This document shows positions 14,040 to 18,240 of a DNA stretch of 64,000 nt, one piece after another; position 1 is the stretch's first letter; every line of letters begins with the position of its first letter. Below the pieces are notes generated by a model, which did no database searches, had not been told where the DNA came from, and saw nothing but the letters and a program-made list of their open reading frames with translations. Both the position numbers and the translations under genes were made by a program. This DNA is from Oscillospiraceae bacterium (GTDB lineage Bacteria; Bacillota; Clostridia; Oscillospirales; Acutalibacteraceae), in the NCBI GenBank assembly GCA_022508805.1, contig JAFLUM010000010.1, positions 1 through 64,000 of the forward strand. Reading direction: 5' to 3'.

Positions 14040-14235
14040 CCCTTGGCTCCCTCTAACGAAGGAAATTGGTTATCTTGTAGGGGCAGGTGCCCACACCTGC
14101 CCGTGAGTTACTGATAAAATTTAATTTTGTAGGGGACGATGCTCACATCGTCCCCTACAAAATTGTTTCTTTAAATTATGTCGAATGAAAAAACTCCCTC
14201 AGCCGGCTACGCCGCCAGCTCCCTCAAAAAGGGAG
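14040..14235. repeat. Cluster of intergenic hairpin repeats
   Basis: Within a 506-base gene-free stretch (13959-14464) three repeat-like palindromes occur in a row. The first is GGGCAGGTG/CACCTGCCC (14081-14102). The second is a 19-bp perfect stem, AATTTTGTAGGGGACGATG (14123-14141) with its complement (14146-14164). The third is a CTCCCTCAGCCGGCTACGCC element (14194-14235). The last recurs in inverted orientation at 24545-24597, and GGCTCCCTCTAACGAAGGAA (14045-14064) recurs at 36761-36780. These look like dispersed non-autonomous repeats. Confidence 0.75.
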
Positions 14236-14323: not shown

Positions 14324-14352
14324 TTGACACACAGAAAACACCTTGCTACAAT
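14324..14352 (+). promoter_or_regulatory. Strong sigma-A promoter of the lysis cassette
   Basis: Consensus TTGACA (14324-14329) and TACAAT (14347-14352), spacer exactly 17. Transcription would start near 14359, just ahead of the LexA-type box. Confidence 0.78.
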
Positions 14353-14365
14353 AATAATTGCAAGG

Positions 14366-14379
14366 CGAACAAATGTTCT
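14366..14379 (+). promoter_or_regulatory. LexA/DinR-type SOS operator
   Basis: CGAACAAATGTTCT matches the Gram-positive LexA consensus CGAACRNRYGTTYC at every position except the last. It lies about 7 bases downstream of the predicted transcription start, a repressing position. Confidence 0.65.
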
Positions 14380-14398
14380 GCGAAAAACTGTAATACAG

Positions 14399-14450
14399 GA
14401 ACGCTTGTATTAAGGCTTAGCCTTATGTATGCGTTCTTAATTTTTCTTTC
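14399..14450 (+). terminator. Leader hairpin, possible attenuator
   Basis: GAACGC/GCGTTC outer and TAAGGC/GCCTTA inner stems form a long bulged hairpin between the promoter and the first gene. It is followed by TTAATTTTTCTTT. It resembles a terminator placed inside the 5' leader. Confidence 0.45.
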
Positions 14451-14464
14451 AAAGGGAGCAAAAA

Positions 14465-14875
14465 ATGCTAATAACCGAACAGGACGAAAAAATATCAACG
14501 CTGGGGACGGATGAATACTTTTTTCTGACCGAAAACCTTGAATCTATTGATCCGCAGTCAGTAAGAAAAGCCGTTAGATACATCGTATTCAATAAACGGC
14601 GGAGGCTTTTGGAAATCGTAAAAGAAGTTATGAATAACGAGCTGAGTGAGCTTGAGAGGCACATAGCTCTTGATTTTTGGGATAAAAAAATCTCTGCAGA
14701 CGATATTGCAAAAATGAACGGTATCGGTCGTTCATCTGTTTACAGAAATATCGGTAACATCCGAAAAAAGCTTGAAAAATCGCTTAAATACGTTTTACTG
14801 TATGATTTGAGCTCTCTTCCGACTTCGGCAGATGAGCTTTTAGAATTCGTTAAGGGGGAGTACGTTGAAAACTGA
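14465..14875 (+). CDS. Sigma-70 region 4-like regulator (phage/bacteriocin type)
   Basis: A 136-residue protein. The C-terminal half has a region 4-like helix-turn-helix: a LSELERHIALDFWDKK helix, then DDIAKMNGIGRSSVYRNIGNI as recognition helices, followed by a basic amphipathic helix. The N-terminal 60 residues are charged and helical, and no region 2 is evident. It is likely a DNA-binding activator or an alternative sigma factor fragment controlling this operon or related promoters. AAGGGAG lies 6 bases before the ATG. As the first gene behind a LexA-type box, it parallels UviA of C. perfringens in position only; sequence similarity was not tested. Confidence 0.72.
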   Translation: MLITEQDEKISTLGTDEYFFLTENLESIDPQSVRKAVRYIVFNKRRRLLEIVKEVMNNELSELERHIALDFWDKKISADDIAKMNGIGRSSVYRNIGNIRKKLEKSLKYVLLYDLSSLPTSADELLEFVKGEYVEN

Positions 14876-15098
14876 AAATATATCACTGTTCCGACTTGGA
14901 GAGGAATATGAAAAGAATGCAAAAATACAGCAGTTTTTCATCGACCGCTGCAACGAGGATATAAAAAAGGCTGAAAAGTCACACGACAGAGATGCCGTTC
15001 GCGAGCTTCGTTCAAATTTATATAAATTTTACGAAATAAAGCGGGAGATGGAAGAAACGGCACAAATTTTGAAAAATTATTATAAAGGAGAGGCTTAA
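14865..15098 (+). CDS. Small helical (coiled-coil) protein of the cassette
   Basis: A 77-residue charged, entirely helical-looking protein with heptad-like spacing from about residue 10 to 72. The family is not recognised. The start is a TTG at 14865 with GGGGGAG 4-6 bases upstream; it overlaps the regulator by 11 bases and its stop overlaps the next ATG by one base. This tight coupling suggests a structural or chaperone partner of the fibre protein that follows, but that is a guess. Confidence 0.65.
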   Translation: MKTENISLFRLGEEYEKNAKIQQFFIDRCNEDIKKAEKSHDRDAVRELRSNLYKFYEIKREMEETAQILKNYYKGEA

Positions 15099-16768
15099 TG
15101 GAAAGAAAAACGATTTCTATTGACATATCGCCTGACACGCTTGACGAAGCCTACCGGGAAAAAGCAGGTGTTATGTGGGAGCATAACGCCGTCTCAATAA
15201 CCTTTAACATTGATTCTCGTTTTGTAGGTGATTATAGATATTACATCGAATACCGTTCATTTTTGGGAACGCTCGTCAGAACGGTAAATTTGACCTTAAA
15301 CAAAGCCGACAACACTGTCACTTATGCTATTCCTGCCGGGATGAGCTCGCTTATGAGTGTGGAATGCTTTTTCAATATCGTCTCCGTTGACGGCGACGGA
15401 AACACTTTGCAAATAATCAAGCCGAAAAGATTTTGTCTTGATTTTGACCGTGCGCCCGATACGGACAACACTCTTTCAAAGATAAACGATTTTACCGTTA
15501 ATTCATTGCTTGAGGCCATAAGAAACGGCACTTTTAAAGGGGAAAAGGGCGACAAGGGGGATTCGTATGTCCTTACTGATGATGACCGCGCGGATATAGC
15601 GCTTAGAATAAACGGTGATATTTACGGTTTGCCGTATATCCGTGAATTTGAGTCCTCCGACAAAACGCCTATTAAGGCAGTATCAAGCAACGGCACCGTC
15701 AAAAAGTTCACAATAAGACCCGCAACGAGTGATTTGTCTGCTGCAAGCGAGGACGAGCCTGTGCCGTATACATCATTTTCAAAAATAAAGCTGTTTATCG
15801 GCAAAAATGAGATCGAATATCTGCTTGATCCTGATATGTACAGTACATTTAAATATTATTCGGATGCATGTCCAACCGTAAATTACAGAGCTGTTCCCAT
15901 TTCGCTGAAGCCCAATACAAAATATGCGCTTGTTAGGTATAGCGCAGATCTTAACAACTCAGCCAGCTGCATAATCAATTCCGGTGCCACCCGCCATTTC
16001 GCCCATAAAAGTAACGCAGGTGTGCAGATCGACTATATGGAAATCAATACGGATGAAAGCGGACTGATATACATCTCCACAACAGGTCTGGCAGCGAGCA
16101 ACGCTTACGATGAGTATAGAAAAATGCTTGCTTGCAGCTTTTACGGACTGGGAATCTATGAGCTGCCAAAATCCATGATCATATCGGTCGAAGTTTCGAA
16201 TAATCTGTGTGCAATTGCAGACAACACTGCCGACACAGCGGAGATGACAAGCGGAAAAGTAACATACAACATTGAGCAGTTTGCTGTTCCGAAGAAATTT
16301 TCAGAGGATGCGGTAAGGTCCTTTAAGTCGGCTGATGCGACGGTTTACCGCTATAATTTGCCGCTTACAGTCACTCCCGACTGCCGAAATGATTATGATA
16401 TAGTATCGACTCATTATAAGCAGACGGAGAGTTTTGTTGATTCCGACAGCGATTTATCGGAACCGGTTGCATCGGAAGAGGGATACAAGGGAATCTACCT
16501 TGACCGTGTAAACGCAAAAATTTATCTTTATACGGATAAAGACCCTGAAGCGTTTGCGGAGTTTATCACCAAGCAGCAGGCAGCGGGAACACCCGTCACA
16601 GTGCTTTACAGAATGAAATATCCGCTCGATGAGTCGATAACACCTACGGAAATAACTTTGAATAAAGAAAACGAATATATACACGGCTTCCCGCAGGAAG
16701 CGGTATACAGTGTCAGCGTGAACGGAGATATTTCCGCCGCGTTGAACGAGGTAATGAACAAAATCTAA
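15098..16768 (+). CDS. BppU-like phage baseplate/tail-fibre protein
   Basis: A 556-residue protein. Residues 1-120 resemble the N-terminal domain of phage upper baseplate proteins (BppU), a beta-rich fold. A DNTLSKINDFTVNSLLEAI-type helix and a short collagen-like GEKGDKGDS (148-156) follow, then YVLTDDDRADIA, a linker common in tail-associated proteins of Firmicutes phages. The rest is a long beta-rich, receptor-binding-like region with no recognised catalytic motif. The ATG overlaps the upstream stop by one base and has AAGGAGAGG. It is the only virion-like protein in the island. Confidence 0.72.
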   Translation: MERKTISIDISPDTLDEAYREKAGVMWEHNAVSITFNIDSRFVGDYRYYIEYRSFLGTLVRTVNLTLNKADNTVTYAIPAGMSSLMSVECFFNIVSVDGDGNTLQIIKPKRFCLDFDRAPDTDNTLSKINDFTVNSLLEAIRNGTFKGEKGDKGDSYVLTDDDRADIALRINGDIYGLPYIREFESSDKTPIKAVSSNGTVKKFTIRPATSDLSAASEDEPVPYTSFSKIKLFIGKNEIEYLLDPDMYSTFKYYSDACPTVNYRAVPISLKPNTKYALVRYSADLNNSASCIINSGATRHFAHKSNAGVQIDYMEINTDESGLIYISTTGLAASNAYDEYRKMLACSFYGLGIYELPKSMIISVEVSNNLCAIADNTADTAEMTSGKVTYNIEQFAVPKKFSEDAVRSFKSADATVYRYNLPLTVTPDCRNDYDIVSTHYKQTESFVDSDSDLSEPVASEEGYKGIYLDRVNAKIYLYTDKDPEAFAEFITKQQAAGTPVTVLYRMKYPLDESITPTEITLNKENEYIHGFPQEAVYSVSVNGDISAALNEVMNKI

Positions 16769-16795
16769 ATATTTTAACTGTGAGGAGATGATATT

Positions 16796-17659
16796 ATGAC
16801 AGCTTATAAAGGAATTGACGTATCAAAATGGCAGGGAGAGATCAACTGGTCAAGGGTCAAAAACAGCGGTATTCAGTTTGCGATGATTCGCTCAGGCTAC
16901 GGCAGCGGTCAGGAGGATGTTTGCTTTAAATACAACTACGAACAGGCAAAAAGAGTAGGCATTTGTGTGGGGGCTTACCATTATTCTTACGCTAAAACTC
17001 CAGAAGAGGCAGTAAAAGAGGCAGAATTCTGTCTTTCAGTGCTGAAAGGCAAAAAATTTGAATATCCTATAGCATACGATATGGAAGACAGCACAGTCGC
17101 CACGCTCGGCAAGGAAAAAATATCGGAAATAGCAAAGGCATTCTGCAGTAAAATGGAAGAAAACGGCTATTATGTATGCATCTATGCAAATCTTTACTGG
17201 CTGAACAACTATTTTACCGACGAAATTTTTGAAAAATATGATATTTGGCTTGCCCAGTGGGCGGCTAAACCCACCTTTACACGTGCTTACGGCATATGGC
17301 AAAACAGCTCCAAGGGCAGAGTGGACGGAATAAACGGCAACATGGATACAGATGAGTCGTATAAAAATTACCCGTCCATTATGAAATACAACGGACTTAA
17401 CGGCTACGGCAGTACAGATCCTGTTGAGCCCCCGAAAAAAGGCTTTAAGGCAGGGCAAAAGGTCACGCTCAAAAACGCCAAGCTATATTCCTCGGCAACG
17501 TCTGAGCGTGTTGCAAACACAATAAGCGGCACCTATTATATTTACGACGGTATTTATTTTGACGGACGCTACAGAGTGACAAACTCAATCGAAAATGTTG
17601 AGCGCAAGCCGATCGGGAACTATGTCACCGGTTTTGTGGACCGCGACGAGCTGAGGTGA
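16796..17659 (+). CDS. GH25 lysozyme (endolysin)
   Basis: A 287-residue peptidoglycan muramidase. The GH25 fold opens GIDVSKWQGEINW with catalytic D8; the second acidic cluster YDMED supplies D95 and E97. The catalytic domain ends around 195. After a Pro-rich linker a C-terminal domain (about 215-287) looks like an SH3-type cell-wall binding module. There is no signal peptide, so export depends on a holin, and two holin-like genes follow directly. GAGGAG lies 9 bases before the ATG. Confidence 0.93.
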   Translation: MTAYKGIDVSKWQGEINWSRVKNSGIQFAMIRSGYGSGQEDVCFKYNYEQAKRVGICVGAYHYSYAKTPEEAVKEAEFCLSVLKGKKFEYPIAYDMEDSTVATLGKEKISEIAKAFCSKMEENGYYVCIYANLYWLNNYFTDEIFEKYDIWLAQWAAKPTFTRAYGIWQNSSKGRVDGINGNMDTDESYKNYPSIMKYNGLNGYGSTDPVEPPKKGFKAGQKVTLKNAKLYSSATSERVANTISGTYYIYDGIYFDGRYRVTNSIENVERKPIGNYVTGFVDRDELR

Positions 17660-17663
17660 TACA

Positions 17664-17930
17664 ATGTCGGAGGATGAAGTTTCAAAGCACAGACTTGATA
17701 TGCTGGAGGAGGACGTAAAAATCCTTTATAAAAAAATCAACGATGTGACTTTAACACAGGTTCAAAGCACAACAAAGCTTGACAGTGTGCTGGCGACTCT
17801 CAGCGAATTAAAGGAGAGTATAGAGACGTTGAAAAGACGTCCCGGTTGGCTGTGGGATAAGCTGATGGTCGCGCTTATGGGTGCGATCTGCGGCGCTTTG
17901 ATTAGTGGATTTGCATCGTTTATTATGTAG
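17664..17930 (+). CDS. XhlA-like holin-associated protein
   Basis: An 88-residue protein. An N-terminal coiled coil (about 5-57) precedes a basic RRPGWLWDK stretch and one C-terminal transmembrane helix (about 66-87), the layout of the XhlA family (hemolysin XhlA of phage-like element PBSX). XhlA works with a holin and endolysin to lyse cells. It begins 4 bases after the lysozyme stop, with GAGGTGA as its binding site. Confidence 0.8.
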   Translation: MSEDEVSKHRLDMLEEDVKILYKKINDVTLTQVQSTTKLDSVLATLSELKESIETLKRRPGWLWDKLMVALMGAICGALISGFASFIM

Positions 17931-17938
17931 GAGGCTAA

Positions 17939-18184
17939 ATGACGGAATATATTTTTGATAATGCGCTTTTGCTTATACCTGTGTTGAATATTATAGGTCT
18001 TATTATTAAGAATACGGAGAAAATACCTGATAAATATATCCCGCTTATCTTGCTGGGGTTCGGGATATTAGGAGCTGTGGCAATACTTGGGCTTTCAGCA
18101 CAAAGCGTTATACAGGGAGTTCTTGTATGCGGCGCGGCGGTGTTCGGCAATCAGGTTGTAAAACAGTTTAAAAAAGAAGAATAA
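17939..18184 (+). CDS. Phage holin
   Basis: An 81-residue membrane protein with about three hydrophobic helices (7-23, 34-53, 57-72) and a basic tail QFKKEE. The IIKNTEKIPDKYIPLIL segment is typical of Firmicutes phage holins of the Hol44-like group. It forms the pore that lets the GH25 enzyme reach the wall. AGGAGG lies 4 bases before the ATG. It is the last gene before the terminator. Confidence 0.82.
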   Translation: MTEYIFDNALLLIPVLNIIGLIIKNTEKIPDKYIPLILLGFGILGAVAILGLSAQSVIQGVLVCGAAVFGNQVVKQFKKEE

Positions 18185-18208
18185 GAGCGCGTAAGTGGTG
18201 ATTTACGG

Positions 18209-18240
18209 GGTCGGTGGGCATAACGTCCACCGACCTTTTT
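18209..18240 (+). terminator. Terminator of the lysis cassette
   Basis: A 9-bp stem, GGTCGGTGG with CCACCGACC, followed by TTTTT. It closes the transcription unit that begins at 14324. Confidence 0.87.

Follow-up and report, generated by a model that had tools for sequence, protein, structure and literature searches.

A LexA-boxed fibre-and-lysis operon as the probable release arm of a two-locus, gene-transfer-agent-like system in an Oscillospirales genus

The six-gene cassette between positions 14324 and 18240 of the window (the whole stretch of 64,000 nucleotides of Oscillospiraceae DNA analysed here) is probably the fibre-and-lysis operon ("operon II") of a vertically inherited system, divided between two loci, that resembles a gene transfer agent and is known at present from its genes. 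It encodes a regulator (REG), a small, apparently helical protein (COIL), a fibre, a lysozyme and two membrane proteins, and it is apparently switched on by DNA damage, as suggested by a LexA box beside its promoter. The initial annotation had taken the cassette for a free-standing, domesticated lysis unit under LexA control. At the sequence level this is well supported by synteny, purifying selection, vertical descent and the conserved LexA box. The accompanying claim that capsid and terminase genes are absent holds locally but not genome-wide, where a conserved head operon is found. Because this operon is present elsewhere in the genome, the cassette is more likely to be a release-and-fibre arm than to serve by itself for lysis or as a bacteriocin.

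All features of the cassette are on the forward (+) strand. In the promoter scan, a sigma-A type promoter, TTGACA-N17-TACAAT with TG preceding the -10 element (14324-14352), was the best sigma-70 match in the scanned region (11/12), and the weaker promoter-like sites there (13 found, 9.5 expected) were not above chance. A putative start-of-transcript element, TGCAAGG, was recognised by comparison of leaders (14359-14365). It is followed directly by the LexA box CGAACAAATGTTCT (14366-14379), which had been called near-perfect and indeed has one mismatch. REG (14465-14875) is a regulator of 136 residues with a sigma-region-4-like helix-turn-helix in its C-terminal half, and COIL (14865-15098; 77 residues, helical as judged by eye) starts with TTG and overlaps REG. 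The fibre (15098-16768; 556 residues) is composed of a conserved N-terminal domain, a short collagen-like linker and a variable C-terminal module. The GH25 lysozyme (16796-17659) has a DxE motif at residues 95-97 and an additional C-terminal domain. The XhlA-like membrane protein (17664-17930) has a single C-terminal hydrophobic segment, and the Hol44-type holin (17939-18184) has two hydrophobic segments above the threshold. An intrinsic terminator, located by the terminator scan, ends the operon (18207-18240), and a purine-rich stretch resembling a ribosome site precedes each of the six open reading frames. The tight spacing of the six genes behind one promoter and LexA box, the single terminator and the housekeeping genes on both sides were all as first described. 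Since the same layout recurs across the genus, this architecture is not a product of chance.

A single REG gene was present in 35 of 36 genomes of the genus and in none of 23 genomes from other families. The cassettes of G059 and G061 were detected via their LexA sites, which brought the genus total to 37 of 38 genomes. The synteny check proposed in the initial annotation showed the cassette to be conserved across the genus and, in the loci read, to have no phage neighbours and to lie in no prophage. No complete prophage was found at the cassette loci, where head genes were searched by model and tail and integration genes by eye; matches to capsid, sheath and portal were on contigs other than those of the cassettes or, in one genome, beyond a glycogen operon recognised by eye. 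Trees of the cassette genes were compared with that of RecA in 27-28 genomes, and the Mantel r values were 0.81 for REG, 0.83 for the lysozyme, 0.75 for the holin and 0.84 for XhlA (permutation maxima 0.24-0.35). The median dN/dS per gene was 0.06-0.17 (4-12 pairs with dS under 2), with one holin pair at 1.92 for a dS of 0.02. The cassette is inherited vertically, following RecA, and its genes are under purifying selection.

A promoter of like type was observed in all 36 genus leaders examined. Of 35 cassette loci, 29 have the LexA box with no more than one mismatch and six have no box. The same motif is located at recA in 29 of 29 genomes read, a count that left out G016 and seven further recA matches, and in the window's genome it also lies upstream of genes identified by eye as dinB and uvrB. 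A promoter-proximal box having the motif of recA suggests that the cassette is in the LexA (SOS) regulon. In the seven loci where the box was lost or moved, the start-of-transcript element reads TGCGRGT. Not every leader has the element; those of G021, G027 and G006, for instance, differ.

The leader, downstream of the LexA box and ahead of REG, contains a hairpin followed by a T-tract (14398-14449; dG -16.1), a terminator-like candidate attenuator to which the initial annotation did not refer. The window's hairpin was missing from the simple terminator scan because its stem is imperfect. With a threshold of dG -8 or lower, a hairpin with T-tract was detected in 36 of 36 genus leaders and in 100 of 540 shuffles, and the stem and T-tract are retained in spite of large sequence divergence. 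A strict perfect-stem rule gave terminators in 12 of 36 genus leaders against 1.5 expected, the window's leader being unscored. In several leaders from outside the genus, inspection by eye showed a hairpin but no T-tract, and this weakens the leader terminator as a general rule.

The partner overlooked in the initial annotation is a free-standing head operon elsewhere in the genome. It was located by a portal model and contains TerS, TerL, portal, a protease/scaffold-like protein, a capsid matching PHROG 3922, and connectors. TerS, TerL, portal and F3 were present in all 11 fetched loci and the capsid in 10; in the eleventh, from the window's own genome, the contig ends. The portal was found in 35 of 39 genus genomes (15 of 19 via PHROG, and 20 others via a weak Pfam match, 11 of which were verified by fetching) and was not found in the remaining four. 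The cassette is nevertheless present in three genomes lacking a portal match, G016, G018 and G031, the last of which is 96% complete. The head genes follow RecA, with r of 0.64-0.93 in 8-9 genomes. In nearly all genomes read, the head operon is on a contig separate from the cassette, which says little about distance as the assemblies are fragmented. No integrase or replication gene was recognised by eye beside it in the 11 fetched loci, the loci read showed no recognisable lysis gene next to it, and no tail gene was identified, the sheath being the only one searched by model. In none of the ten head operons with a clear start did the 330 bases upstream contain a LexA box at one mismatch or fewer; G006 was left out of this count and of the hairpin count, as its TerS start is uncertain. 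A hairpin with T-tract upstream of the head operon was observed in 7 of 10 cases at -8 kcal/mol or lower (14 of 120 shuffles) and in 6 of 10 at -10 (8 of 120 shuffles), which is only suggestive of a leader terminator. Two other candidates for the partner were rejected: a tailocin (tail sheath in 2 of 39 genus genomes) and an HK97-type agent (HK97 capsid in 7 of 39).

The distribution of the genes over several loci, with the lysis genes apart from the head genes, is what would be expected of a gene transfer agent, and it might be inferred that both loci build one particle. Vertical inheritance, with purifying selection measured on the cassette genes, likewise agrees with such an agent. The SOS-induced PBSX of Bacillus subtilis (Xpf, XhlA, XhlB, XlyA) also combines a sigma-like regulator with XhlA-type lysis proteins. 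The genes of PBSX, a defective prophage, form a single cluster, whereas the head and lysis genes considered here are separate.

The closest likeness is to the gene transfer agent of Faecalibacterium prausnitzii, FpGTA I and II, published in 2026 (PMC12946183). As described there, it also has gut clostridial hosts and two separate operons, one with TerS, TerL, portal, scaffold and capsid, and a second of 5.5 kb with baseplate, tail fibre, receptor-binding protein, holin and endolysin (PMC12946183). The likeness to the present head operon is drawn from layout and from gene content as described (PMC12946183). The FpGTA particles are about 40 nm, no tails were seen and packaged DNA was shown (PMC12946183), whereas the present system is deduced from genes. 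In the main text of that report the words "LexA" and "regulator" do not occur and "SOS" occurs once, in a general sense; a LexA box, REG/COIL and a leader hairpin are described nowhere in that main text (PMC12946183). Apart from the Faecalibacterium agent, no earlier account of the cassette was seen among the open-licence PMC papers that the searches listed, in some cases out of far larger sets.

The Alp system of Pseudomonas aeruginosa is similar in its logic. According to the published description, DNA damage lifts repression, and self-lysis is controlled by a small regulator together with a terminator upstream of the lysis genes; a second operon, whose leader terminators are predicted, is another target of this regulator (PMC7969949). 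In the present system, a leader hairpin with T-tract was observed in 36 of 36 leaders, along with a conserved start element. AlpA is a demonstrated antiterminator and the Alp repressor is AlpR (PMC7969949), whereas the present system has a LexA box and REG is likened to AlpA by arrangement, no search having linked the two. The Faecalibacterium agent (PMC12946183) and the Alp system (PMC7969949), as described, are closer analogues than UviA/UviB and TcdR/TcdE, which the initial annotation had named. In UviA/UviB/Bcn of Clostridium perfringens, too, a regulator, a holin and an endolysin accompany a product that is released; according to the published description UviA is a sigma factor (PMC9527704), whereas REG has a region-4-like part only. 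Bcn is a bacteriocin, and no bacteriocin gene was recognised in the present cassette. In the Rhodobacter gene transfer agent, as reported, GafA is a direct activator of the GTA genes (PMC6363796, PMC9638019), whereas the role of REG is deduced.

The match of REG to the sigma region 4-like model covers residues about 43-110, so that this label is fair for its C-terminal half. Domain searches gave no match to sigma region 2; therefore, REG is not a full sigma-70 factor. In other families, outside the genus, REG and COIL are still found together as a pair of their own. Among 16 stand-alone pairs, five had a LexA box with no more than one mismatch, compared with 69 of 2000 background windows from the same loci; this means that most pairs are without a clear box. 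Profile searches of viral contigs with REG and COIL confirmed no relative, and a scan of genome contigs with REG alone led nowhere. In the phage collection, MT835647.1 is the sole match both of REG and of the fibre. It was rejected as a phage: the entry carries the mark UNVERIFIED, and the remaining genes on it look bacterial by eye (acyl-CoA ligase, glycosyltransferases and others). In a second genus (G413), cassette and head operons are both present. Outside the genus, 15 of 34 genomes with COIL and 9 of 27 without it had a portal, those without COIL having been hand-picked from three families. The link between COIL and portal is mixed: it is strong in family f14 (8 of 10 against 0 of 6; Fisher 0.007), not so in f1 (5 of 5 against 9 of 14; Fisher 0.26), where nine genomes have a portal and no COIL at E 1e-5, and in f13 no link is seen (0 of 17 against 0 of 7).

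These observations lead to the following model. DNA damage would cause cleavage of LexA and open the cassette promoter, as the box implies, and REG, COIL, the fibre, the lysozyme and the membrane proteins would be made. This promoter has a consensus sequence and would need no REG as a sigma factor. The most likely role of REG is to pass the signal on to the unlinked head "operon I", upstream of which no LexA box was detected, and REG might act either by activation or by antitermination at the leader terminators. The heads would then be filled with DNA, the fibre would equip the particle for binding to recipients, and the holin and lysozyme would burst the producer cell, as their families and the Faecalibacterium agent suggest. 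A stronger proposal, that REG and COIL are the SOS relay of a split gene transfer agent, carrying polymerase past the leader terminators of both operons, and an old, widespread Oscillospirales regulator of capsid-mediated DNA release, is put forward as speculative and rather doubtful. It is possible, but not probable, that REG has no action in trans, that the hairpin stabilises the mRNA and that LexA is the sole control, which would fit either purpose of the operon. The leaders without T-tract outside the genus and the modest number of strict perfect-stem terminators are in keeping with this simpler control, but the stem and T-tract conserved throughout the genus and the REG/COIL pair persisting in other families speak against it.

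The lysis genes bear on what the operon is for. The lysozyme was present in 37 of 37 genus cassettes and the Hol44 holin in 35 of 37; in G030 and G035 the holin is of another family (the Pfam run covered the G035 protein only). In the window, the last gene is clearly a holin of Hol44 type (8e-20), as had been assigned. The XhlA-like assignment is weak, its Pfam match (E=0.001) being below the cut-off and its PHROG match to hemolysin being 3e-7. The lysozyme has no segment above the hydropathy threshold. In distant relatives the gene order is broadly kept and the lysins are unrelated (M23, Amidase_3, NlpC/P60). Such exchange of lysins within a constant layout would suit a stand-alone SOS-programmed lysis, unlinked to the head operon, in which damaged or infected cells burst and thereby free DNA, enzymes or vesicles or stop a phage. 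In addition, a regulator, a lysin and a holin form the core kept in all cassettes, 10 of 37 cassettes have no fibre, three cassette genomes gave no portal match, and explosive lysis for vesicles and extracellular DNA is known in Pseudomonas, as reported (PMC4834629). We consider this unlikely, as it leaves unexplained both the parallel genus-wide head operon and a fibre with a conserved anchor domain and swapped tips.

The swap of the tips is evident in the sister loci G028 and G017, whose fibres share 82% identity in the N-terminal and 21% in the C-terminal region. Seven C-terminal classes were recognised among 28 fibre proteins, including lipase-like, phosphodiester-glycosidase-like and adhesin-like modules, and three of the 28 tips have enzyme domains. 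These swapped modules favour the suggestion, already made, that the fibre serves in targeting. The designation "BppU-like" was unsupported at the sequence level: the window's fibre has no Pfam match, the BppU_N model (PF10651) matched none of the 28 family members at E 0.01, and its two matches in the genus were on contigs other than cassette contigs. A profile comparison of fibre and BppU was also negative, and is weak evidence as only two sequences were compared. A PDB search with the N-terminal domain gave no match. The same domain is found in a long gene adjoining a Hol44 holin on two IMG/VR contigs. A fibre-type bacteriocin, in which the released fibre itself acts on neighbours through its swapped modules, would account for the constant N-terminus, the seven classes and the enzyme domains, but it is improbable: the fibre gene is optional, no immunity gene was noticed in passing, and the position of its N-terminal domain next to the holin on the viral contigs points to a role in attachment. 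A recent prophage remnant in decay, brought to mind by the phage-type fibre and lysis parts, is highly improbable and, unless the trees are wrong, already refuted by an intact, single-copy cassette under purifying selection, with RecA-congruent trees genus-wide and capsid, sheath and portal matches away from it.

Capsid-borne host DNA is reported to be widespread in the human gut (PMC12946183). No switch for the Faecalibacterium agent is named in the passages considered (PMC12946183), and the LexA box and regulator on the release operon are a conserved candidate for one. If the cassette is the release arm of a gene-transfer-agent-like system, DNA-damaging drugs would be predicted to make these commensals release more particles. 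Genes of both operons, head and release, could then serve as markers for such systems in other gut families.

The cassette lies on the + strand of the window. A consensus promoter (14324-14352) is followed by the LexA box CGAACAAATGTTCT (14366-14379, one mismatch), a leader hairpin with a T-tract (14398-14449), six closely packed genes (14465-18184) and a terminator (18207-18240). The promoter, LexA box, six-gene run and terminator described in the initial annotation are all present at 14324-18240. The regulator, REG, has 136 residues with a helix-turn-helix resembling sigma region 4, as had been proposed: in the PDB it is closest in sequence to UPF0122 proteins and sigma factors. The second gene encodes COIL (77 residues). 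A fibre-like protein of 556 residues is accompanied by the lysis genes, which encode a GH25 lysozyme, an XhlA-like membrane protein and a Hol44-type holin. The housekeeping flanks were also confirmed: one unassigned gene and then rimP, nusA and infB are on the left, and two unassigned genes followed by maf, a Mur ligase gene and an EF-G-type gene are on the right, many neighbours being named by reading, without a model. It should be mentioned that a terminator scan found a 20-pair inverted repeat (TTTTGTAGGGGACGATG...) at 14122-14165, upstream of the promoter, which is terminator-like on both strands.

Among 59 relatives searched, 35 of 36 genus genomes have a single REG (G060 was left out), and the 23 genomes of other families gave none. 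Together with the cassettes of G059 and G061, added through LexA-site searches, this makes 37 of 38 genus genomes, the one in which it was not found being G005 (completeness 85%). The conserved synteny by which the cassette was to be checked was thus found in the genus, whereas beyond it the gene order is only broadly kept, with gaps and partly other lysins. In profile searches of the 37 cassettes, the lysozyme was present in all, the Hol44 holin in 35, the XhlA-like protein in 29, the fibre in 27 and COIL in 16. The cassettes of G030 and G035, without Hol44, have another small gene in common, whose product in G035 is a Phage_holin_1 protein. Gene maps of 34 loci, some ended by the contig, place the cassette at several chromosomal sites that are stable inside sub-clades: in the window's group it is next to rimP and nusA, on their side of the locus, and in another it is downstream of a clpC-like gene (by eye). 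The sequence distances of the cassette genes between genomes track those of RecA (Mantel r 0.75-0.84). Median dN/dS is 0.06-0.17; one holin pair gave 1.92, at a dS of only 0.02. The record MT835647.1 (L105), labelled "Bacteriophage sp.", appears to be a contig of bacterial origin that carries the cassette.

When genomes were scanned with the holin alignment, the best 80 of 105 loci were kept. REG is near the holin in 42 of the 80; in ten of these, which lie beyond the genus, it is a distant form (L163, L165, L173, L177, L179, L181, L186, L187, L204 and L215). In these ten loci and in L282, which a separate search found in a second genus of the family, the order REG, COIL, tail-like genes, lysin, XhlA-like gene and holin is broadly retained; L163 has no COIL match and L204 no recognised lysin. 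LexA boxes, apparently two in some cases, are present at several distant cassettes. The lysins are of the GH25, Amidase_3, NlpC/P60 or M23 type, that of L173 being unassigned. Nine of the ten distant lysins examined, those of the ten loci except L204, have a type I dockerin domain at the C-terminus, usually a component of the cellulosome; the M23 lysin is without it. The lysins of L214 and L205, loci without REG, likewise have a dockerin, and an XkdX-like small gene (by eye) adjoining the L214 lysin suggests that this locus is a prophage. REG was found in none of 36 viral-contig holin loci; one viral GH25 locus gave a weak helix-turn-helix match (4e-4). The named records are mostly metagenome assemblies, and one rabbit-gut bin, Lapin-021 bin38, has at least seven Hol44-type holin loci (L165, L190, L191, L194, L195, L198 and L199).

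The absence of capsid and terminase genes, as annotated initially, holds within the window, where the models used for the head operon found no head gene, but not for the genome: contig C29 bears a head operon at about 99757 to 103636, and C2 bears the cassette. Pfam portal matches, mostly weak, were obtained in 21 of 39 genus genomes, and a PHROG search was positive in 15 of 19 further ones; the portal total is 35 of 39 (15 PHROG and 20 Pfam, 11 of the 20 fetched individually). Three cassette-bearing genomes gave no portal match. All 11 fetched loci are free-standing operons of TerS, TerL, portal, F3 (protease/scaffold-like), the capsid protein F4 and small connector-like genes, followed by unrelated genes; the copy of the window's genome ends with its contig. 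In G027, PHROG matches identify the terminase small (3e-10) and large (6e-47) subunits, portal (1e-118) and major head protein (3e-78). F3 falls in a family without an assigned function and also has a weak match to a head maturation protease. Head-gene distances also track RecA (r 0.91 for TerL, 0.92 for portal, 0.93 for F3 and 0.64 for F4; 8-9 genomes). In G023 both operons lie within 20 kb, with glycogen synthesis genes (by reading) between them; in all other genomes having both, portal and cassette are on different contigs. G413, of the second genus, has both operons. In one family outside the genus, portal was present in 8 of the 10 COIL-positive genomes and in none of six hand-picked COIL-negative ones; this co-occurrence is supportive in that family, not in others. 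Elsewhere in the window's genome, at about 7843 of C8 and about 11175 of C11, a LexA-type site by repressor and integrase genes (by reading) and, on the other contig, a tail sheath gene were noted; these are probably prophage or mobile elements.

The claimed LexA box recurs in 29 of 35 cassette loci at up to one mismatch: 24 have a perfect CGAAC-N4-GTTCG directly after the -10, and five have one mismatch, the box lying inside the promoter spacer in one of these. The other six (G001, G002, G023, G024, G030 and G035) have no box, and their promoters have a conserved stretch, TGTTGACAAGTAACA, which covers the -35 and could be an operator. Since it is common to all six, control may have passed there to another repressor. 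The recA LexA motif was found in all 29 genus genomes read, with one mismatch in 27; in the window's genome, exact or one-mismatch motifs precede recA, dinB and uvrB (the latter two by eye). A stronger box on the lethal operon than on recA would fit the need of tight, late SOS genes, although in the window the cassette box itself has one mismatch too. A TGCRRG element at the transcription start (14359-14365 in the window) is present in most of 36 leaders, even without a LexA box. When a hairpin with a T-tract was required, all 36 leaders folded at -8 kcal/mol or below (100 of 540 shuffles), and 25 at -12 kcal/mol or below (25 of 540). A strict perfect-stem rule found terminators in 12 of 36 versus 1.5 expected; the window leader, whose stem is imperfect, scores nothing under it. 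The stem sequence differs widely among loci with pairing retained, as judged without a formal covariation count.

The claimed likeness of the fibre to BppU was not supported by sequence, the BppU_N model matching none of 28 proteins (one from MT835647.1 and 27 genus proteins). Mean pair identity is 0.47 over the first 150 residues and 0.20 over the remainder (337 pairs), and single-linkage clustering gave one N-terminal and seven C-terminal classes. The sister loci G028 and G017 are 82% identical over the N-terminal part and 21% over the rest; other sister pairs, e.g. G023/G024, retain both. Tip domains include GDSL-lipase (two), phosphodiester-glycosidase (one) and YadA-head (one). Two IMG/VR contigs also encode the N-terminal domain, as part of a long gene close to a Hol44 holin gene; the intervening gene, on the contig that was read fully, is an amidase gene by reading.

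A COIL profile has matches in 37 of the 39 genus genomes; in most, a match lies beyond the cassette, either in addition to one inside it or exclusively. COIL stands alone directly behind a LexA box in G009, G010, G011, G018, G005, G027, G034 and G061 (L060, L063, L061, L079, L078, L066, L064 and L076, respectively). In other Oscillospirales families, COIL-REG pairs occur without a nearby cassette lysis-gene match; five of 16 (L283, L288, L292, L295 and L301) have a LexA box at up to one mismatch, and 11 do not.

Borodovich and co-workers (PMC12946183) report that F. prausnitzii has its head genes in one operon and, in a separate one of 5.5 kb, genes for a baseplate, a fibre, a receptor-binding protein, a holin and an endolysin; the particles measure about 40 nm and contain about 9 kb of DNA. 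Because this operon split matches ours, we read the cassette as the fibre/lysis operon, or release arm, of a gene-transfer-agent-like system. The division of labour between the two operons is the same. None of ten head operons with a clear start has a LexA box (up to one mismatch) within 330 bases upstream, so a relay would be needed, and REG is the obvious candidate to carry the damage signal to the head operon. In the Alp system (PMC7969949), a lysis regulator induced by damage acts by antitermination on two operons that have terminators in their leaders; REG may act likewise. To the Faecalibacterium account the present analysis adds the conserved LexA box, the regulator pair and the leader hairpin on the fibre/lysis operon, and evidence for vertical inheritance throughout the genus.
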